Positions 25,752 to 34,436 of a DNA stretch of 34,436 nt are shown here, piece after piece. The first letter of the stretch is position 1. Each line of letters starts with the position of its first letter. The DNA is from Pseudonocardia sp. (GTDB lineage Bacteria > Actinomycetota > Actinomycetes > Mycobacteriales > Pseudonocardiaceae): assembly GCA_026785945.1 (NCBI GenBank), contig JAJAZD010000195.1, positions 1 to 34,436 on the forward strand. Direction: 5' to 3'. The position numbers were made by a program, and so were the translations under genes. The notes beneath the pieces were generated by a model, which saw only the letters and a program-made list of their open reading frames with translations, had not been told where the DNA came from and ran no database searches.

Positions 25752-26642
25752 CTATGGCACGGGGAACGGGGACGCGGACGCGACGTCGCTGCCGTCGAGG
25801 GCCTGCGTGCAGCGCACCATGTCGATGGTCACGTCGAGGATGAACCGCTGGAACAGGAAGAGCAGGCCGGTGATCGCGGCCACCTCGGCGTCGGAGCACA
25901 CCGCGAGCGCGGCGTCCGGCGCGAGGCCCGCGATTGCGGGCAGGTCGCCGACCTGCTCGCGGGCCCGGGTGAGCAGCGCCTGCGCGGTGGCCTCGTAGGG
26001 GGCGGTGCGCACCACCGGCGCCAGGATGTCGTCCAGGGCGACCTGCAGGAAGTCGGGCCAGTTGGCGAGCACCCGGAAGTCGCTGGACGGCCCGTGGTGC
26101 AGGTGCATGTCGGTGACCCGGCGCAGCAGCCCGCCGACGCGCGGCGAGACGTCGCGGGGATCGACCATGCTCAGCGCCGCCATCCCGGCCGGGGGGCCGG
26201 GGGGCACCGTGTCCTCCAGGGCGGCCACCGCGCCGGCCCCGCCGCTGGCCCGACCCTGAATGCCCTCGCACCACGCCGTGATCAGCAGCAGGTACTTGGC
26301 GTTGCCGTAGTTCAGTGCGCGCAGCGCCTCCCGGACCTCGTCCACTCGACTCTCGACGAAACCCAGCCCGGCCAGCCGTGGCCGCGGGTCGGGCGGGTCA
26401 TCGCCGGGCAGGATCGCCATCGCGCGCAGCTCGTCGGCGCACCGCTCCAGGTGGCGGGTGGCGAAGGTGGTCCGGGACACCCGCCAGGCCGCGGGCACGA
26501 AGCCGCCGAAGACGGCGAGACTGCGCGCCGCGAACATCACCCAGGGCACCCGCAGCACCGCCTGCATGTCCTCGTAGCTGCCCCGCAGCTCCCCGCGCGC
26601 GTCGGCGAACTCGACCTGCGGGAACTTCGGCCCGCCGCTCAT
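25752..26642 (-). CDS. DehI-family (group I) 2-haloacid dehalogenase-like protein
   Basis: A 296-residue all-helical protein resembling the DehI/D,L-DEX family, which hydrolyses 2-haloalkanoic acids by direct water attack on both enantiomers. The N-terminal half has FADARGELRGSYEDMQAVLRVP and YGNAKYLLLITAW (112-124). The second half has SDFRVLANWPDFLQVALDD, in which Asp188 sits where the catalytic Asp189 of DehI is expected (from memory). Many family members are of unproven activity, so substrate remains open. ATG at 26642 is the only good start; a GGGG stretch lies upstream. A broken type II haloacid dehalogenase lies next door on the other strand. Confidence 0.7.
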   Translation of the reverse strand: MSGGPKFPQVEFADARGELRGSYEDMQAVLRVPWVMFAARSLAVFGGFVPAAWRVSRTTFATRHLERCADELRAMAILPGDDPPDPRPRLAGLGFVESRVDEVREALRALNYGNAKYLLLITAWCEGIQGRASGGAGAVAALEDTVPPGPPAGMAALSMVDPRDVSPRVGGLLRRVTDMHLHHGPSSDFRVLANWPDFLQVALDDILAPVVRTAPYEATAQALLTRAREQVGDLPAIAGLAPDAALAVCSDAEVAAITGLLFLFQRFILDVTIDMVRCTQALDGSDVASASPFPVP

Positions 26643-26852: not shown

Positions 26853-27264
26853 ATGTCAGCACACTGCCCCGGAGACTCCGGCGTTCGACGTCGTCGAGAC
26901 GTTGATCTCGCTGGAGCGTGCGGGTGATCGGCGCCGGGCGGCTCACCGATGACGACGTGAGCCACGTCCTCGACGGGTTCGCCACGTTGCCTGCCCAGCC
27001 GGACGCCGAACCGGCCATGCGGGCCCTCGCCGACACCGGTGTCTCCATGGTGGTGGCCCGGAGCAACGGGGCCCAGAAGAGCACGGAGGCGTTCCTGGAC
27101 CGCAGCGGTCTGGACCGTTCGTCGACGACGTGATCAGCGTGGCCGACGTCGGGAAGTGGAAGCCGCCGCCCAAGATGTACCGGTACGCGCTGGACCGCAT
27201 CGGCCGGCCGGCGGGTGATGTCGCGCTGGTCGCCGCGGGGCTCGTCGCCCTGCCCGAGACCTGA
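26853..27264 (+). pseudogene. Broken type II (HAD) haloacid dehalogenase
   Basis: AAGGAGAGG precedes ATG at 26853, and homology to L-2-haloacid dehalogenases continues through three frames. FDVVETLISLE carries the nucleophile Asp motif (from 26884, one base out of frame with the ATG). Next comes LTDDDVSHVLDGFATLPAQPDAEPAMRAL with SNGA and STEAFLDRSGLDR (26918-27118). Then FVDDVISVADVGKWKPPPKM with the motif III Lys and IGRPAGDVALVAA, ending at 27264. About 60-70 codons between the first and second pieces are missing (cap domain), and the final WD motif with the acidic motif IV is lost. It is therefore non-functional. Confidence 0.85.
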
Positions 27265-27407
27265 GATCCACCGGCTGTCGAGGACGGGCTCCGCGGTCTC
27301 GAGCAGCACTGCGAGGCCGGCGCGGCGCTGGGGGAATCAAACCGGCGGCGGCCGGGTTGCCTGCCCGCACGTACGGCACGTGAGCCGAGTCCTGCGGAGA
27401 GGTGACG

Positions 27408-28847
27408 ATGGGCGTGCTGGAACGGTTGCGTCGATGGGGGCGCGCCACGCGGCCCACCGATCCCGAGTTCACCGCGGCGATGGCCCGGCGGTGGGCGGAG
27501 CTGCCGGAGACCGTGCGGACACCCGGCCAGGCGCTCGGCCGGTTCGCGGTCGGTTGCGAGGGCACCCACGGGGTGTTCCCGGCCTGCGACCTGGCCTGCA
27601 CCCCGTGTTACCACTCGCGCGACGCCAACCGGGTGCGGGTGGACGGCGCGCACACCCGGGAGCAGGTCGACGCGCAGATGTCGGTCCTGCGCCGGCTGCG
27701 GGGTCCGCGGGCGCACGCCCAGCTGATCGGCGGAGAGGTGACACTGCTGCCTCCCGACGACCACGCCGCGACGTTGCTGATCATGCGTGCGCACGGCCGC
27801 GAGCCGATGAGCATGACCCACGGCGACATCGACGACGACTACCTCGACCGCCTCGTTCTCGGCCCGGACGGACGGCGCCGCCTGCACCGGGTGTCGTTCG
27901 CGGGCCACTTCGACTCGATGATGTTCGGGCGTCGCGGGATCCCCCGCCCGCCGGACGAGGCCTCGTTGCACCCGTACCGGCGGCAGTTCGTCGCCCGGTT
28001 CGAGCGGCTGAGCCGGGAGCACGGGGTGCGCTCGTTCCTGGCCCACAACATGACCGTCACCCCGGCCAATGTCAGCGAGGTGGCCGAGGTCGTGCGGGCC
28101 GTCGGGCCGATGGGTTTCGGGATGCTGTCGTTCCAGCCCGCCGCCTACGTCGGCGACGACCGGCGCTGGCACGGGGACTTCCGCGGCGCGGACGTCGGCC
28201 CGGACGCCGTGTGGGCGCAGATCGAGAGTGGCGCCGGGCAGCGGCTGGACTACCGGATCGTGGAGAACGGTGACGTCCGCTGCAACCGCACGGCATACGG
28301 CTTCTACCTGGGAGATCGCTGGTATCCGCTGCTCGACGGCGCCGATCCCCGCGACCTGGCCACCCGCGACGCGGTCTTCGCGCACCTGTCCGGGATCGGG
28401 TTCGCCGCCACGCCGGTGCCGGCGCTCGTGGTCAAGCTGGCGCGGGTGCTGGCGCGCCACCCCGGGCTGCTGGCGGTCGCGGCCGGCTGGTTGGCCCGCA
28501 CGCTGCGCCGGGTCGGGGCCCGGTCGCTGCTGCGCACGGTGGCGAGCCGGTCGTGGCCGCGGCCGGTCACCTTCGTGATGCACCAGTTCATGGACGCCGC
28601 CGCCGTCGAGCCGGCCTGGGCGATGATGCAGCGCGGCGAGACCGCGGACGACCCCCGGCTGCGCGAGACCCAGGAGCGCCTCGCCGCGTGCCATTATGCG
28701 ATGGGGCACCCGGACACCGGGACCCTCGTCCCGGCGTGCGTGCAGCACGGCGTGCTCGACCCCGCGGCGAACGCCGCGCTGCGGCGGCTGCTGCCGATCG
28801 TCGAGGCCCGGCGCACGATCACCGGCACCCGGACGGAGAAGACATGA
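27408..28847 (+). CDS. Radical SAM protein of unknown reaction
   Basis: A 479-residue radical SAM enzyme. The [4Fe-4S]-binding CX3CX2C motif is Cys60, Cys64 and Cys67 in ACDLACTPCYHS, and the SAM-binding GGE motif is at 108-110 in LIGGEVTLLP. The C-terminal ~150 residues are helical and basic (LARVLARHPGLLAVAAGWLARTLRR) and may lie on the membrane; conserved Cys residues near the end (AACHYAMGH, VPACVQHG) could bind an extra cluster or metal (inference). ATG at 27408 has GGAGAGG 5 bases upstream, better than GTG at 27402. It overlaps the next gene by four bases. An inverted CACGT-N5-ACGTG (27368-27382) lies upstream and may be an operator. Confidence 0.88.
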   Translation: MGVLERLRRWGRATRPTDPEFTAAMARRWAELPETVRTPGQALGRFAVGCEGTHGVFPACDLACTPCYHSRDANRVRVDGAHTREQVDAQMSVLRRLRGPRAHAQLIGGEVTLLPPDDHAATLLIMRAHGREPMSMTHGDIDDDYLDRLVLGPDGRRRLHRVSFAGHFDSMMFGRRGIPRPPDEASLHPYRRQFVARFERLSREHGVRSFLAHNMTVTPANVSEVAEVVRAVGPMGFGMLSFQPAAYVGDDRRWHGDFRGADVGPDAVWAQIESGAGQRLDYRIVENGDVRCNRTAYGFYLGDRWYPLLDGADPRDLATRDAVFAHLSGIGFAATPVPALVVKLARVLARHPGLLAVAAGWLARTLRRVGARSLLRTVASRSWPRPVTFVMHQFMDAAAVEPAWAMMQRGETADDPRLRETQERLAACHYAMGHPDTGTLVPACVQHGVLDPAANAALRRLLPIVEARRTITGTRTEKT

Positions 28848-30283
28848 GCCCGGTCGTCGTGCCCGCCGTGGAGGGCGGGGTGTGGGACCTGCTGGTGATC
28901 GGCGGCGGGGCCGCCGGGCTCGTCGGGGCCCGGACCGCGGCGTCGTTCGGGGCGTCGGTGCTGCTGGTCGAGCGGGAGCGCACCGGTGGGGACTGCCTGT
29001 GGACGGGCTGCGTGCCCAGCAAGGCACTGCTCGCGGCCGCGTCCCTGGCGGCCGACGCCCGCGGCGCCGGGCGGCTCGGGGTGCACGTCGAGCGCGTGCG
29101 GGTCGACTTCGCGGAGGTCATGGCCCACGTGCGCGCCGCGATCACCACCATCGAGCCCGTGGACTCCGCCGACGCCCTGCGCGCGGTGGGCGTGCAGGTC
29201 GCCATCGGCACCGCCCGGTTCACCGGCCCGGCCACGGCGGACGTCGGGGGTACGCCGGTCCGGTTCCGGCAGGCGTTGGTCGCCACCGGCTCCGATCCCC
29301 TGGTACCACCCGTCCCCGGCCTGCGGGACGCATCGCCGTTGACCAGCGACACCGTGTGGGACCTCACCGGGCTCCCCGCGCGGCTGGTGGTGCTCGGCGG
29401 CGGCACGATCGGCTGCGAACTCGGCCAGGCCTTCGCCCGGCTCGGGTCGTCGGTGACGGTCGTCGAAGCGGCCGGGCGACTGCTGGGCGCCGAGGACGCC
29501 GACGCGTCGGCGCTGGTCACCGAGGCGTTGCGCCGCGACGGGGCCACGGTGCTCACCGGTGCACCGGTCACAGCGGTGCACGGCGGCCAGGTCGTGCTCG
29601 AGGACGGGCGGCGGGTCCCGGCCGACACGATCCTGGTCGCGCTGGGCCGCCGGCCCGACACCCGCGGTCTCGACCTCCATGCCGCCGGGATCGAGGTCGA
29701 CGACCGGGGGCACGTCGTCGTGAATGCCGCGTTGCGCACCACCTGTCGCCGAGTGTGGGCCGCGGGCGACGTCACCGGGCATCCGCAGTTCACGCACGTC
29801 GCGGGGGTGCACGGCTCCACCGCGGCCAGCAACGCCGTGCTGGGGCTGCGCCGTCGCGCCGAGGTCGGCGCGATCCCGCGGGTGACCTACACCTCGCCGG
29901 AGGTCGCGGCCGTCGGCGTCGGCGCCGGCGCTCCGGGTGTCACGGTCCGCACCGTGGGCCACGACGAGGTGGACCGCGCCGTCGCGGAGGGCCGCACCGC
30001 AGGGTTCGCCCGGCTGGTCACCGACCGCCGCGGGCGGCTCGTCGGCGCGACGGTGGTGGGCCCGCGGGCGGGGGAGACCCTCGCCGAGCTGACCCTGGCC
30101 GTGCGCCGGGGCCTGCGCGCGCAGGACCTGGCCTCGACGATGCACCCGTACCCGACCTTCGGCGACGGCCCGTGGAACGCCGCGATCGCCGACGTCCGCG
30201 CCCGGCTCACCGCCCCGGCCGCCAGAGGGGCCATCGGGGTCCTGTCCGCGGCCCGGCGGCGGTGGCTCGACGCGCGGGGCTGA
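28844..30283 (+). CDS. FAD-dependent pyridine nucleotide-disulfide oxidoreductase (Lpd/MerA-like)
   Basis: A 479-residue class I flavin disulfide reductase. FAD fold: DLLVIGGGAAGLVGAR (15-30). Redox-active disulfide: Cys51 and Cys56 in GGDCLWTGCVPSK. NAD(P) fold: LVVLGGGTIGCELGQAFARLG. Second FAD motif: VWAAGDVTG. The C-terminal interface region reads HPYPTFGDGPWNA; classical members have HPxxxE with a catalytic His-Glu pair, and the Glu appears absent. No MerA C-terminal CC is present. The natural substrate is unknown; the tight overlap with the radical SAM gene suggests they act together. Its stop is only 7 bases from the convergent phosphatidyltransferase stop. Confidence 0.9.
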   Translation: MSPVVVPAVEGGVWDLLVIGGGAAGLVGARTAASFGASVLLVERERTGGDCLWTGCVPSKALLAAASLAADARGAGRLGVHVERVRVDFAEVMAHVRAAITTIEPVDSADALRAVGVQVAIGTARFTGPATADVGGTPVRFRQALVATGSDPLVPPVPGLRDASPLTSDTVWDLTGLPARLVVLGGGTIGCELGQAFARLGSSVTVVEAAGRLLGAEDADASALVTEALRRDGATVLTGAPVTAVHGGQVVLEDGRRVPADTILVALGRRPDTRGLDLHAAGIEVDDRGHVVVNAALRTTCRRVWAAGDVTGHPQFTHVAGVHGSTAASNAVLGLRRRAEVGAIPRVTYTSPEVAAVGVGAGAPGVTVRTVGHDEVDRAVAEGRTAGFARLVTDRRGRLVGATVVGPRAGETLAELTLAVRRGLRAQDLASTMHPYPTFGDGPWNAAIADVRARLTAPAARGAIGVLSAARRRWLDARG

Positions 30284-30290
30284 TGGGGCG

Positions 30291-30902
30291 TCACCGTAGG
30301 GCGCGATGCCCGGCCACGATGCGCTGGGCGGCACCGAGCCCGACCACCGCGGCCCAGACCACCGCGATCTGCGGGGCCCAGAACGGCGCCACGAGCCAGA
30401 GCGTGTGCACCGCGATCGTCTCTGCGCCCTCGGCGATGCCGCCGAGGAACGACAGGGACCGCCCGTCGTCGCGGGTGCGTCCCGCGCGCTCGGCGATCGA
30501 GGAGAACGCGAGGAACGCCGTGCCGTTGACATAGTAGGCCAGCAGCACCAGCAGGAACGGCCACAGCGGGCCATCGGAGCCGATCCCCACGCCGACGACG
30601 GTGGCGCCATAGACGGTGAAGTCCGCGGTGATGTCGAAGAACCCGCCCGCCCCGGCGTCGCCGACGTCCCGGGCGCGGCGGCGGCGGGCGAGCGGGCCGT
30701 CGAGACCGTCGGCGAGCCGGGAGGCCAGCCACAGCACGATCGACGCGGTCCACCATCCGGTCGCGGCGGCAGCGGCGCTGCCCAGACCGAGCACCAGCCC
30801 GGCGGCGGTGAGCCGGTCCGGGGTGATCCATCCGATGTCCAGGGCGGTGGCGGCGCGCTCCAGCGGGCGTTCCAGTGCCCGGCGCAGCGGGGCGTCGAAC
30901 AT
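30291..30902 (-). CDS. CDP-alcohol phosphatidyltransferase family membrane protein (YnjF-like)
   Basis: A 203-residue membrane enzyme with about five to six hydrophobic helices. The CDP-OH-PT motif D-xx-DG-xx-AR-x(n)-G-xxx-D-xxx-D is complete: D65, D68, G69, A72, R73, G86, D90 and D94. Members transfer a phospho-alcohol from a CDP-linked donor to another alcohol using these Asp residues and Mg2+/Mn2+. Acceptor and donor are unknown. E. coli ynjF encodes this family beside ynjBCD, which is the main reason to compare this region with the ynj locus. Its ATG (30902) shares one base with the TGA of the upstream TVP38-like gene (TGATG), so translation is coupled. Confidence 0.88.
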   Translation of the reverse strand: MFDAPLRRALERPLERAATALDIGWITPDRLTAAGLVLGLGSAAAAATGWWTASIVLWLASRLADGLDGPLARRRRARDVGDAGAGGFFDITADFTVYGATVVGVGIGSDGPLWPFLLVLLAYYVNGTAFLAFSSIAERAGRTRDDGRSLSFLGGIAEGAETIAVHTLWLVAPFWAPQIAVVWAAVVGLGAAQRIVAGHRALR

Positions 30903-31555
30903 CAGTCCGGCACCGCCGGGAGGTTCCCGCGTCGCCGCCGGTTCGCCACCAGCCCGAGCACGGTGAGCACGGCCAGCCCGCCGACGCCGAGCACGAACGG
31001 CGCCGACCCGGGGGTGGCCCCGAAGGCGCCGATCGTGACGTACGCGGCGACGCCCGGCAGGATCCCGACGGCCGTGCCCAGCAGGTAGTCCCGCGGTCGC
31101 ACCGCGCTGAGCCCGCAGGCGTAGCTCAACGCCGTGAACGGGAGCAGCGGCACCAGCCGGACCCCGATGACCGCGAGCAGGCCCCGGCGGCGCAGCAGCG
31201 CGTCGAGCTTGCGCAACCGCGCGTTGTCGATGTCGGCGACGGCGTCGCGGCCGAGTAGCCGGGCCAGGGCGAAGGCGGTTCCGGCGCCCACCGTCGCGCC
31301 GCCCAGCACCACGACCACGCCCAGCGGCAGCCCGAACAGCACCCCCGCGGTGATGCTGAGGACCGAGGCGGGCGCGGGGGTGAGCGCCAGCGCGGCGTAG
31401 CCGGTGGCGTAGAGCAGCGGCGCCGCCCAGCCGGCGCGCTCGACCCCCGCGCGGATCTCCTCGATCGGGGGGATCCCGACGATCAGCGCGACGGCGATCC
31501 CGGCTCCGACGACGGCTGCCAGCAGCAACGGCCGGATCCACCACTTCCCGCGCAC
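30902..31555 (-). CDS. TVP38/TMEM64 (VTT/DedA-like) family membrane protein
   Basis: A 217-residue integral membrane protein. The VTT-domain pattern is clear: LTPAPASVLSITAGVLFGLPLGVVVVLGGATVGAGTAFALARLLGRD, then RLVPLLPFTALSYACGLS and LLGTAVGILPGVAAYVTIGA. About five hydrophobic helices including re-entrant loops are expected; family members act in lipid scrambling or transport or in membrane homeostasis. GTG at 31555 has GGAGAGG 5 bases upstream, and the long frame extending to 33019 opposite the binding protein is rejected. It is first in a two-gene unit with the phosphatidyltransferase, and divergent from the ABC importer across 174 bases. Confidence 0.88.
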   Translation of the reverse strand: MRGKWWIRPLLLAAVVGAGIAVALIVGIPPIEEIRAGVERAGWAAPLLYATGYAALALTPAPASVLSITAGVLFGLPLGVVVVLGGATVGAGTAFALARLLGRDAVADIDNARLRKLDALLRRRGLLAVIGVRLVPLLPFTALSYACGLSAVRPRDYLLGTAVGILPGVAAYVTIGAFGATPGSAPFVLGVGGLAVLTVLGLVANRRRRGNLPAVPD

Positions 31556-31729
31556 GCGATCCTCTCCGAACCGGCCACCCGCCGGGTCGCAGCGGTAACC
31601 CCGCCCGGCCCGGCGATCTTCCACGAATTCTGCCGAACGGGGAATCGGACACCGGACGGCCGGGTTCCCCCGGCGCCCACAGCACCCCGATGCCGCCCGA
31701 TCCCGACGACGCTCCGCTGGAGAACGCCT

Positions 31730-32968
31730 GTGCGCCGCCCGCTGGCCCGCCTGACCGTGCTGTGCCTCGCGTCCGCGCTCGTGCTGGCCGCCTGTGGCAC
31801 GGATGCGGACACCGCCGCCCCGCTGCCCGATCCGGCGGACTGGACGTCGGTGACCGAGGCCGCCAGGGGGCAGACCCTCGATTGGTACATGTTCAACGGC
31901 GACGAGGCGGTCAACTCCTTCGTCGAGGGTTACCTGACGCGGCGCCTGGCCGACGAGTACGGGGTGCGGCTCAACGTCGTGGGCGTCGCCGACACCGCGG
32001 ACGCGGTGAACAAGGTGCTCGCCGAGCAGCAGGCCGGGCGCACAGGCGACGGCGCCGTCGACGCGATCTGGCTCAACGGGGAGAACTTCGCCACCGGCAA
32101 GCAGGCCGGGCTGTGGTACTGCGGATACCCCGAGGCCCTGCCCAACGCGCAGTACGTCGATTTCGACGACCCCTCGGTGGCCGGTGACTTCGGGGTACCC
32201 GTCGAGGGGTGTGAGTCGGCCTGGCAGCGGGCCGACTCGGCGCTGGTCTACGACAGTGCCCGGCTCGGCGAGGCCGACGTCGCGTCGCTGACCGCGCTGA
32301 GCGACTGGGCGCGAGCCAACCCGGGCCTGCTCGCCTACCCGGCCGTGCCGGACTTCACCGGTTCCATGGTCGTGCGGACGTTCCTCTACGACACTGTCGG
32401 TAACCCCGCCACGCTCGCCGGGGCCTTCGACCAGGCGAGGTTCGCCCCGCTCGCCGACGAGCTGTGGGCGCGGCTGAACGCGCTGGAGCCCGCGCTGTGG
32501 CGCGGCGGAGAGACCTACCCCACGAGCCAGGACGCGGTCGAGCAGCTCTACGCGGGCGGTGAGATCGCCGCCTACTACACCTACGGCCCGGGCACGGTGG
32601 CGACGAAGGTCGCCGACGGCGTCTACCCGGCCAGCACCCGCGAGGCCGTGCCGTCGGTCGGCAACATCGGCAACGTCTCGAACATCGCGATCCCGGCGAA
32701 CTCGCCGGACCGGGCGGCGGCGCTGGTGCTGGCGAACCTGCTCCAGGACCCGGCCGGCCAGCTGGAGTTCTACTCCTCCGCCGGCATCTACCCGGCGATC
32801 GACGTCGAGCGGACGACCCCCGAGGTGCAGCAGCGCTTCGCCGCGGTCCAGGCCGGGCCGTCGGTGCTGCCGCTCGACGAGCTGACCGCGCGCTCGCTGC
32901 CCGAGCTGGACGCGGGCTACGTCACCGCGATCGAGGACGGCTGGACCGCGAACGTGCTGCAACGGTGA
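31730..32968 (+). CDS. ABC transporter substrate-binding lipoprotein (YnjB-like)
   Basis: A 412-residue extracytoplasmic binding protein. The signal peptide ends in a lipobox, LVLAAC, with the lipidated Cys22. The mature part has TLDWYMFNGDEAVNSFV, VDAIWLNGENFATGKQAGL (closely like the 'IWxNGENF' stretch of E. coli YnjB, from memory), AYYTYGPGTVATKVADG and NIGNVSNIAIPANSPDRAAA. Its length fits the iron/putrescine/sulfate-type family of larger binding proteins. GTG at 31730 has GGAG 7 bases upstream. The next gene overlaps its stop by four bases. Ligand unknown. Confidence 0.88.
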   Translation: MRRPLARLTVLCLASALVLAACGTDADTAAPLPDPADWTSVTEAARGQTLDWYMFNGDEAVNSFVEGYLTRRLADEYGVRLNVVGVADTADAVNKVLAEQQAGRTGDGAVDAIWLNGENFATGKQAGLWYCGYPEALPNAQYVDFDDPSVAGDFGVPVEGCESAWQRADSALVYDSARLGEADVASLTALSDWARANPGLLAYPAVPDFTGSMVVRTFLYDTVGNPATLAGAFDQARFAPLADELWARLNALEPALWRGGETYPTSQDAVEQLYAGGEIAAYYTYGPGTVATKVADGVYPASTREAVPSVGNIGNVSNIAIPANSPDRAAALVLANLLQDPAGQLEFYSSAGIYPAIDVERTTPEVQQRFAAVQAGPSVLPLDELTARSLPELDAGYVTAIEDGWTANVLQR

Positions 32969-33849
32969 GCCGGCGGGTTCCCCGCGGGCTGCGGATCGGC
33001 CTGCTGCTCGCGCCCGCACTGATCGTGGTCGTGCTGCTGTTCGGGGGCGGTCTGGCCCAGGCGGTCGCGCAGAGCTTGGGCTACCAGCCGTTCCTGGCGC
33101 CCCGCCCGCTGGGCCTCGACGCCTACCGGCAGCTGTGGACCGACCCGGCGGTGCGGGCCTCGATCGGGCTGACGCTGCGCGTCGCGGCGGTCTCCACCCT
33201 GCTCGCCGCCGTGCTCGGCGTCGCGGCTGCGCTGCTGGTCCGGTCGCTCGGGCGGACGCGGCGCGTGTTCGGTGCCCTGCTGCAGGTGACGCTGCCCGTG
33301 CCGCACCTGGTCGCCGCGTTGGCGATGGTGCTGCTGCTCGCGCAGAGCGGCACGCTCTCGCGGGGCAGCAACGCGCTCGGGCTGACCGGCGACCCGGCGT
33401 CGTTCCCGGCGCTGACCCAGGACGCGTTCGGCTGGGGGATCATCATCTCCTATGTGTGGAAGGAGGCCCCGTTCGTCGGAGTCGTCGTGCTGGCTTCCCT
33501 GTCCACGGGGGTCGCCGAGCTGGAGGACGCCGCCCGCGCGCTCGGGGCCGGTCCGGGGCAGCGGTTGCGGCACGTCGTGCTCCCGGTGATCACGCCCGCG
33601 GTCGGCGCGTCGTCGCTGCTGGTACTGGCGTTCACCGTCGGGTCCTACGAGGTGCCGTTCCTGCTGGGGCGCCCGTTCCCGGCCACCCTGCCGGTGGTGG
33701 CCTACCAGCAGTTCCGCGACCCGGACCTGGCGGCCCGCCCCCTCGCCGCCGCGATCAGCGTGCTCATCGCGGTGCTCGTGGGGCTCTGCGCGCTGGCCTA
33801 CCTGGCCCTGACCGAACGCTCGTCCCCGACCCGGGCGGTCCTCCGATGA
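32965..33849 (+). CDS. ABC transporter permease (YnjC N-half-like)
   Basis: A 294-residue binding-protein-dependent permease with about six transmembrane helices (first at ~10-32, RIGLLLAPALIVVVLLFGGGL). The ATPase-contact EAA loop is ELEDAARALGAGPGQRLRHVVLP at about 190-212. In E. coli YnjC the two permease halves are fused in one ~510-residue protein; here they are separate genes with an ATGA overlap. GTG at 32965 overlaps the binding-protein TGA (GTGA). Confidence 0.88.
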   Translation: MSRRVPRGLRIGLLLAPALIVVVLLFGGGLAQAVAQSLGYQPFLAPRPLGLDAYRQLWTDPAVRASIGLTLRVAAVSTLLAAVLGVAAALLVRSLGRTRRVFGALLQVTLPVPHLVAALAMVLLLAQSGTLSRGSNALGLTGDPASFPALTQDAFGWGIIISYVWKEAPFVGVVVLASLSTGVAELEDAARALGAGPGQRLRHVVLPVITPAVGASSLLVLAFTVGSYEVPFLLGRPFPATLPVVAYQQFRDPDLAARPLAAAISVLIAVLVGLCALAYLALTERSSPTRAVLR

Positions 33850-34436
33850 GGCGTGCGATCGGGACGTCGGCACTCGTCGTGGGCCTGCTGGCGCCGGTGC
33901 TGCCACTGCTGGCGTGGGCGGTCAGCGGGCAGTGGCGCTACCCCGCGCTCGTGCCCGAGCGGCTCACCGGCCGCGGCCTCGGGTTGCTCGGCGACCGGGA
34001 CGTCGTCGAGGCGCTGGTGACGTCCCTGGCCATCGCCACGGCGGTGGCCGTGCTCGCCGCCGCGCTGGGGCTCGGCGCCGGCCGGGCCGTGGGTCTCCAC
34101 TCCTTCCCGGGCAGGCGGGCCGTGCAGTTCCTGCTGCTCGCCCCGGCGCTGGTCCCGACGATCGCGGTCGCCCTCGGGATCCAGGTGTTCCTCATCCGCT
34201 ACGGCGTCGCCGACACCGTCGCGGGGGTGGTGCTGGTGCAGCTCGTCCCGACGGTGCCCTACGTCAGCCTGGTGATGGGCGCCGCGTTCGCCAACCTCGA
34301 CCCCGACATCGAGGACCAGGCCCGGATGCTCGGCGCCGGCCCCGGGCCGCGCGCCGGGCGGGGGCCCCAGCCCCCCGGGGGGGGCGCCCGCGGGGGGGGC
34401 GCGGGGCGGGGCGTGCGGGTGGGCGGGCGCGGGGAC
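33846..34436 (+). CDS. ABC transporter permease, partial (YnjC C-half-like)
   Basis: ATG at 33846 overlaps the previous stop. The frame is open to the window end (about 197 codons). Helices are visible at ~5-27 (ALVVGLLAPVLPLLAWAV), ~58-78 (LVTSLAIATAVAVLAAALGL) and ~92-112 (VQFLLLAPALVPTIAVALGI). The EAA loop begins IEDQARMLGAGPGPRAGR near residue 157-174. From about 34352 the frame reads only Gly/Pro/Arg from runs of G and C, where homologues have VTLP; I treat that part as unreliable sequence. The gene should continue to ~270 residues and be followed by an ATPase. Confidence 0.82.
   Translation, partial: MRRAIGTSALVVGLLAPVLPLLAWAVSGQWRYPALVPERLTGRGLGLLGDRDVVEALVTSLAIATAVAVLAAALGLGAGRAVGLHSFPGRRAVQFLLLAPALVPTIAVALGIQVFLIRYGVADTVAGVVLVQLVPTVPYVSLVMGAAFANLDPDIEDQARMLGAGPGPRAGRGPQPPGGGARGGGAGRGVRVGGRGD
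34352..34436. other. Suspected low-quality contig edge
   Basis: The last 85 bases are runs of G and C (for example eight consecutive G twice) with codon usage unlike the preceding gene, exactly where a conserved permease loop should continue. The first ~40 bases of the window have a similar look. Base-calling or assembly artefact is the likeliest cause. Confidence 0.65.

Follow-up and report, generated by a model that had tools for sequence, protein, structure and literature searches.

The locus analysed here lies on a contig of Pseudonocardia sp. (GenBank assembly GCA_026785945.1, contig JAJAZD010000195.1), the whole of which, 34,436 nucleotides, we call the window, and two kinds of described system come close to it. 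The first is the E. coli set ydjXYZ-ynjABCDEF; an excerpt of one study lists ydjXYZ-ynjABCD among the operons that FNR, the anaerobic regulator, activates directly (PMC3688515). The second is the arsenosugar-type operon. According to passages of another paper, a radical SAM enzyme adenosylates arsenic in arsenosugar biosynthesis, and the C-As bond of bisenarsan is proposed to be formed by BsnM/BsnN, with no SAM enzymes (PMC12159101). In the titles and abstract openings of the open-licence literature we found no paper on the substrate of E. coli ydjXYZ-ynjABCD, and neither the ynj genes nor the radical SAM family described below were tied to arsenic there. In terms of its gene families, the window locus is a hybrid of both systems, a ynj-type set (importer, CDP-alcohol enzyme, TVP38 protein and flavin disulfide reductase) joined to a radical SAM gene of the arsenosugar-type operons.

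Re-examination of the window located seven genes exactly where a first-pass annotation, made from the sequence alone, had placed them:

27408-28847, + strand: radical SAM protein (rSAM), with exactly seven cysteines, of a family common to proteobacterial arsenosugar-type operons
28844-30283, + strand: flavin disulfide reductase (FADred), resembling MerA and dihydrolipoyl dehydrogenase, with a Pyr_redox_2 domain and the active site GGDCLWTGCVPSK
30291-30902, - strand: YnjF-like CDP-alcohol phosphatidyltransferase (Pfam CDP-OH_P_transf)
30902-31555, - strand: TVP38/TMEM64 (VTT) membrane protein, YdjX/YdjZ-like, with a GTG start (Pfam VTT_dom)
31730-32968, + strand: YnjB-family substrate-binding lipoprotein (SBP; PRK11622), with an LAAC lipobox recognised by eye
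32965-33849, + strand: PermA, an ABC permease resembling the N-terminal half of YnjC (E 9e-8; Pfam BPD_transp_1)
33846-34436, + strand: PermB, a second ABC permease, truncated at the contig end, with its C-terminal part on contig C130

The rSAM and FADred genes overlap in the sequence ATGA, seven bases separate the end of FADred from the convergent CDP-alcohol enzyme gene, the stop of TVP38 overlaps the start of the latter by one base, and 174 bases lie between the divergent TVP38 and SBP genes. The overlap, the facing gap and the divergence of the importer were thus confirmed, as was the ynj-type character of the locus. The SBP scores 404 bits with the NCBIfam model PRK11622 (cut-off 203; E. 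coli YnjB itself 560 bits) and is 36% identical to YnjB (E 3e-59), which groups it with YnjB, as had been proposed, rather than with a characterised thiamine, iron or polyamine system. Its Pfam match is SBP_bac_8 (69 bits), and the two split YnjC-type permeases match BPD_transp_1 with 50 and 27 bits. The CDP-alcohol enzyme (CDP-OH_P_transf, 33 bits) is 32% identical to E. coli YnjF (E 7e-23) and keeps the motif DGLDGPLAR..GGFFDITAD, with a spacing of 12 instead of the 7 of the motif definition. The TVP38 protein (VTT_dom, 93 bits) is 28-31% identical to E. coli YdjX and YdjZ (E 6e-19 and 5e-20). Because ydjXYZ directly precedes ynjA, TVP38 is part of the E. coli locus as well; the first-pass annotation had rightly compared the importer and CDP-alcohol enzyme with ynjABCDEF, while omitting ydjX and ydjZ just upstream. 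The enterobacterial extras YnjA, YdjY and YnjE gave no tblastn match at E 1e-3 on the window, C130 or contig C161.

The window is the entire contig C195 of a 4.46-Mb assembly in 380 contigs, and its last 100 bases (34337-34436), which cut PermB, are 96% G+C with G/C runs and are probably unreliable sequence. Measured on the permease of another Pseudonocardia locus (L028), the window holds residues 6-179 of PermB and C130 residues 148-272. Behind the permease part, which lies at the end of C130, comes an ATPase gene (14596-13475). Its product is the best match in this genome to the ATPase of L028 (63-65% identity) and shares 40% identity with YnjD of E. coli (E 3e-34). An AhpC/SelL-like gene (13326-12946) is next, the gene order being that of L028. 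Assuming that the ends of C195 and C130 meet, the predicted YnjD-like ATPase of the locus, which had been sought beyond the contig, is the one on C130.

Part of this set exists elsewhere with no rSAM. YnjB-type matches occurred on 171 plasmid records, and we read seven regions, picked from the best 25 for spread. In these regions from other phyla the importer was accompanied by a CDP-alcohol enzyme in six cases, by TVP38 in three and by FADred in three, and no rSAM match was found in any of the seven. A plasmid operon of Metabacillus dongyingensis (L158) reads TVP38-FADred-SBP-permease-permease-ATPase-CDP-alcohol enzyme in one run, TVP38 is fused to FADred in Falsirhodobacter, and FADred lies near the importer in Deinococcus; the rSAM-free core is found in Bacillota and Alphaproteobacteria. 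Since FADred adjoins importers of the YnjB type that lack rSAM, it belongs to the wider set, and only rSAM is the actinobacterial addition, not the rSAM and reductase pair that the first-pass annotation had singled out as unusual. The window FADred matches Pyr_redox_2 with 212 bits; a mercuric reductase role was considered and rejected, as its score with MerA (TIGR02053) is 367 bits, under the cut-off of 454.

The rSAM scores 21 bits with Pfam Radical_SAM, below the gathering score of 29.5, and its assignment is therefore based on the CxxxCxxC motif and the fold. The motif lies at C60/C64/C67, the remaining cysteines are C50, C292, C428 and C444, and all seven are invariant in 56/56 rows of an alignment (A4) of the window with 55 of 77 good stretches, four stretches with stops or too short having been omitted. 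The four cysteines outside the motif may serve a second Fe-S cluster or a metalloid site. The same seven are present in 3/3 proteobacterial relatives, and hhalign of the window-type against the proteobacterial group gave 99.8% over 352 columns. A structure model (pLDDT 85.5) had 24 PDB matches at E<=0.001, all of them radical SAM enzymes, and the TM-scores, taken over the query length, were low (0.21-0.34). Against solved structures by sequence there was no convincing match (the best, an aldolase, had E 0.07), and against NCBIfam none at 0.001. Neither TrsS nor Tes matched the window protein by profile; the Cupriavidus relative reached 107 of 490 with TrsS and 73 of 450 with Tes. By its alignment, this is an unnamed radical SAM family defined by seven invariant cysteines.

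A scan with rSAM, one genome per species, yielded 280 relatives, and neighbours were counted in the closest 80 loci, 27 or more of which carry a Streptomyces label, so that the counts are not independent; in 46 of the 80 the sequence extends 6 kb or more to either side. Locus features were found by tblastn with window or Streptomyces queries, which divergent homologues may escape. All but two loci (78/80) bear the label of Actinomycetota or of one of its taxa, the others being an Acidobacteriota metagenome-assembled genome and one other bacterium. FADred accompanies rSAM in 66 loci, the CDP-alcohol enzyme in 34, TVP38 in 25, and the SBP and the ATPase in 22 each. The SBP occurs under 13 genus-level labels, including Pseudonocardia, Streptomyces, Kineococcus, Kineosporia, Promicromonospora, Humibacillus, Geodermatophilus, Rhodococcus and Arthrobacter (six SBP stretches were omitted from the SBP alignment, A5). 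Gene order varies, with the importer pointing away in Geodermatophilus (L089) and a single run in Kineosporia (L098).

A second accessory set recurs in the same 80 loci: an MTAP-like phosphorylase (31), TIGR04282 (29), TIGR04283 (34) and a fusion of a metallophosphoesterase with an Rv1681-like radical SAM domain (34; L035 13686-15374 and 33 other loci). The two TIGR families are named arsenosugar biosynthesis glycosyltransferases by NCBI, and the fusion resembles ArsS more than the window-type rSAM does; its two parts are separate genes in Roseomonas. As a control we used 26 loci around other actinobacterial radical SAM genes. A FADred homologue lay within 1.5 kb of rSAM in 46/80 loci against 0/26 control loci and the phosphorylase in 31/80 against 0/26, while TIGR04283 showed no difference (8/80 against 2/26). 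The control is informative for FADred, the phosphorylase and TIGR04282 and weakly so for the ATPase and the CDP-alcohol enzyme; the latter, the SBP, TVP38 and the permeases lie mostly more than 1.5 kb from rSAM, beyond its reach.

The tree of rSAM sequences places the window with Pseudonocardia (support 100/99), in a clade that is sister to Actinomycetospora loci of the second, sugar-gene type (92/91, a node not starred), and this part of the tree is rich in loci of that type. In Actinomycetospora L053 (9260-11341) the TIGR04283 transferase and rSAM form one open frame of 693 codons. As far as gene neighbourhoods tell, rSAM and FADred are what stays while the accessory sets change. A chance adjacency of unrelated genes in this contig might be suggested by the patchy occurrence of rSAM, which was detected in 10/296 genomes sampled from the phylum (only as a fragment in two of the ten), in 4/80 of the family and in 0/2 other genomes of the genus. 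Nevertheless, the same set recurs in many genera and in four gene orders and the control was 0/26 for FADred, so the neighbourhood counts refute this explanation and we regard it as extremely improbable. By these counts the cassette is real, co-conserved and multi-phylum, and the co-conservation outside its own genome on which the first-pass annotation had made its reading depend is borne out. In 119 genomes around G316 the alignment of the proteobacterial rSAM proteins matched nothing at 1e-40, a threshold so strict that the result carries no weight, as an actinobacterial-type rSAM (L096) is present in G316.

Some further neighbours were noted. ECF-type sigma factor genes (cluster c3; L080, L083 and others) lie near rSAM in 30/80 loci and may encode a regulator. 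In Arthrobacter sp. H14 (L105 10001-18089) a further copy of rSAM that is short or contains a stop stands beside pieces of the CDP-alcohol enzyme and TVP38 genes, a partial repeat of the locus. Upstream of the window rSAM there is a haloacid-dehalogenase-type (HAD) gene that looks broken by eye (26873-27265); HAD-like genes of intact look (cluster c20) occur near rSAM in 9/80 loci. A gene of the DehI family of halocarboxylic acid dehalogenases (25752-26642, - strand; Pfam 40 bits) also adjoins the window locus.

The connection with arsenosugar-type operons is seen on plasmids, where the window rSAM matched only Burkholderia (44 records, with B. glumae among the matches listed), Cupriavidus and Roseomonas. 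A one-strand run in Cupriavidus encodes ArsM, AhpD, ArsS, FADred, TVP38, TIGR04283, TIGR04282, phosphorylase, rSAM and DUF547. Its ArsS scores 466 bits with TIGR04167 (cut-off 300), its AhpD is 46% identical to E. coli YnjA, and its FADred and rSAM are 40% and 29% (E 6e-16) identical to those of the window. On the B. glumae plasmid, rSAM lies about 2 kb from an annotated arsS. The Roseomonas plasmid (L156 9866-15268) carries an rSAM relative with TIGR04282, an Rv1681-like radical SAM protein, a metallophosphoesterase, FADred, a VTT protein and a phosphonate-type ABC importer, that is, a different importer type beside the same rSAM family; no ArsS or phosphorylase match was found in this region. 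Within Actinomycetota, one Streptomyces locus (L035) brings together an ArsM-like gene, the importer, the CDP-alcohol enzyme, TVP38, FADred, rSAM, phosphorylase, TIGR04282 and TIGR04283, and an ArsM-like methyltransferase stands beside rSAM in 17 Streptomyces loci.

ArsS exceeded its cut-off in 4/296 genomes of the phylum, and the order TIGR04283-ArsS-phosphorylase was found in 4/4. The phosphorylase of these true ArsS loci is 44% identical to the one adjacent to rSAM in Streptomyces (207-221 bits). In one of them (L148 2376-4760), YdjY and a YdjZ-like TVP38 (57% identical to E. coli YdjZ) are encoded about 3 kb upstream of TIGR04283, which by gene content is a direct link of E. coli ydjYZ to an ArsS locus. 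Three accessories of arsenosugar operons, rSAM, FADred and TVP38, have homologues in the window. Taken at the level of gene content, the genomic link between rSAM and arsenosugar-type operons is strong. A general adjacency to arsenic resistance operons was also considered and rejected, since it was seen at L035 only.

The shared phosphorylase and transferases initially led us to favour rSAM as a plain replacement for ArsS, which would adenosylate dimethylarsenite before the linked phosphorylase removes the adenine. This would agree with the Streptomyces type of locus, where rSAM is followed by an ArsS-type phosphorylase and TIGR04282/TIGR04283 with no ArsS match. However, rSAM and ArsS occur together on the two proteobacterial plasmids of Cupriavidus and Burkholderia, so rSAM is not simply a stand-in for ArsS. 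Moreover, rSAM was rejected as an ArsS (TIGR04167) homologue, with no NCBIfam match and 10.9% by hhalign over the radical SAM core, and Streptomyces and Roseomonas carry another radical SAM protein, Rv1681-like and metallophosphoesterase-linked, that is closer to ArsS. We therefore consider a plain replacement improbable.

The reading that we favour, tentatively and at somewhat less than even chances, is that the locus imports an organoarsenical, or a compound resembling one, and attaches it to a lipid. The YnjBCD-type importer would take up a small polar organic compound, for which an arsenosugar or a methylated arsenical is our best guess. FADred would use NAD(P)H and a partner thiol to convert it to a reactive trivalent state, and rSAM would employ a 5'-deoxyadenosyl radical, in an active site with many conserved cysteines, to form or alter a bond of the C-As (or C-X) type. 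The alcohol so produced could then be coupled to CDP-diacylglycerol by the CDP-alcohol enzyme; the phosphatidyl-linked product, for example an arsenosugar phospholipid, may be moved or handled in the membrane by TVP38. Phosphatidyl-linked arsenosugars are a known class of arsenolipids in algae, and a CDP-alcohol enzyme fits their synthesis. Arsenic as the substrate, the order of steps and the product are a best guess; it falls on organoarsenicals since no partners other than ArsM and ArsS have a known chemistry. The sequence of import, redox or radical chemistry and lipid attachment proposed by the first-pass annotation fits the gene anatomy in outline; the precursor, which it left open, is one for which the neighbourhoods point to organoarsenicals without proving them.

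Several observations weigh against this reading. Importer genes alone accompany rSAM in 19 loci and sugar genes alone in 36, both being present in only 4 (Streptomyces) and neither in 21, a class inflated by short contigs. ArsM beside rSAM is confined to Streptomyces and falls under the NF008823 cut-off (195 against 263), arsR/arsC genes stand beside only 1/80 loci, and rSAM occurs in the company of ArsS itself on the two plasmids mentioned above. Within 25 kb of the B. glumae rSAM there was no FADred or TVP38 match. The genome of the window lacks ArsS (TIGR04167) and TIGR04283 over cut-off and also ArsM (best 54.7 bits against 263), and its best phosphorylase is only 36% identical; a TIGR04282 candidate on C161, far from the locus, reached 123 bits against 134 and was rejected as the missing transferase. 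In 14 genomes with importer-type loci, TIGR04283 was over cut-off in none and ArsM in two. The nearest folds of the SBP are binders of the 2-aminoethylphosphonate type, of polyamines and of iron, all at 10-18% identity, and its sole match to solved structures by sequence is 4edp (E 0.002). The separation of the two types of loci would be reconciled if importer-type species take up an organoarsenical made by sugar-type species, which is a guess.

Much of this would be expected from a general salvage of head groups, in which the ynj set brings in a polar alcohol of an ordinary kind, or a phosphonate-like compound, and attaches it to a phospholipid, the arsenosugar operons have borrowed a promiscuous TVP38 and FADred, and rSAM tailors a head group free of arsenic. 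Plasmids of Metabacillus, Falsirhodobacter and others carry the core in regions that gave no match to ArsM, ArsS or rSAM, the SBP and permease are most like 2-aminoethylphosphonate and polyamine systems, and arsenosugar genes are mostly absent from importer-type genomes. Such salvage leaves unexplained why the rSAM family and a YnjA-like AhpD (46%) lie within the Cupriavidus ArsM-ArsS run, as well as the all-in-one Streptomyces loci, and we hold it to be the less probable account, though a serious one.

Selenium or sulfur may also take the place of arsenic, with rSAM making a seleno- or thio-sugar or lipid and SelL-like and other redox genes supplying the chalcogen. SelL-related genes adjoin 11/80 rSAM loci and one lies on C130, TrsS, a radical SAM (seleno)protein, is the NCBIfam model nearest to the proteobacterial relative (107 bits), and E. 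coli YnjE is a sulfurtransferase. Nevertheless, that score falls far short of the 490 bits set for TrsS, no NCBIfam model matches the window rSAM at 0.001, and the metalloid enzymes actually present in the linked operons are ArsM and ArsS. This variant seems unlikely to us.

A bolder extension of organoarsenical import and lipid attachment, rather doubtful at present, is that the whole ynj-type set, E. coli ydjXYZ-ynjABCDEF included, is an uptake and membrane-lipid arm of organoarsenical metabolism that imports arsenosugars or methylated arsenicals into arsenic phospholipids, and that the actinobacterial rSAM catalyses a C-As bond reaction that is new and differs from those of ArsS and ArsL. 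The actinobacterial loci bridge the ynj importer and lipid enzymes with the radical enzyme and transferases of arsenosugar-type operons. They turn an orphan E. coli operon into a concrete question, whether it handles organic arsenic, and they offer the CDP-alcohol phosphatidyltransferase as a candidate enzyme type for arsenic phospholipid synthesis.

Compared with known systems, the window shares with E. coli ydjXYZ-ynjABCDEF a YnjB-family SBP, a YnjC-type permease, a YnjD-type ATPase, a YnjF-type enzyme and a YdjX/Z-type TVP38. E. coli alone has YnjA (AhpD-like), YdjY and YnjE, with neither rSAM nor a MerA-like reductase in the 18 kb examined, whereas rSAM, FADred and the split permease are peculiar to the window. 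The Metabacillus operon has the importer, TVP38, FADred and CDP-alcohol enzyme in common with the window, but no rSAM match. In Cupriavidus sp. KK10 (p1, L157) the common genes are the rSAM family, FADred and TVP38; ArsM, AhpD, ArsS, TIGR04282, TIGR04283, phosphorylase and DUF547 are found there only, and no importer or CDP-alcohol enzyme match was obtained. We infer that the actinobacterial rSAM loci, the ynj-type sets without rSAM and the arsenosugar-type operons act on related compounds. Streptomyces sp. SM10 L035, together with L036, L038 and L041, resembles the window in its importer, CDP-alcohol enzyme, TVP38, FADred and rSAM (70% identical), and adds an ArsM-like protein, a methyltransferase, phosphorylase, TIGR04282, TIGR04283 and the metallophosphoesterase-rSAM protein. 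The bisenarsan (bsn) cluster of Streptomyces is likewise an actinobacterial organoarsenic pathway, but one built from another set of genes.

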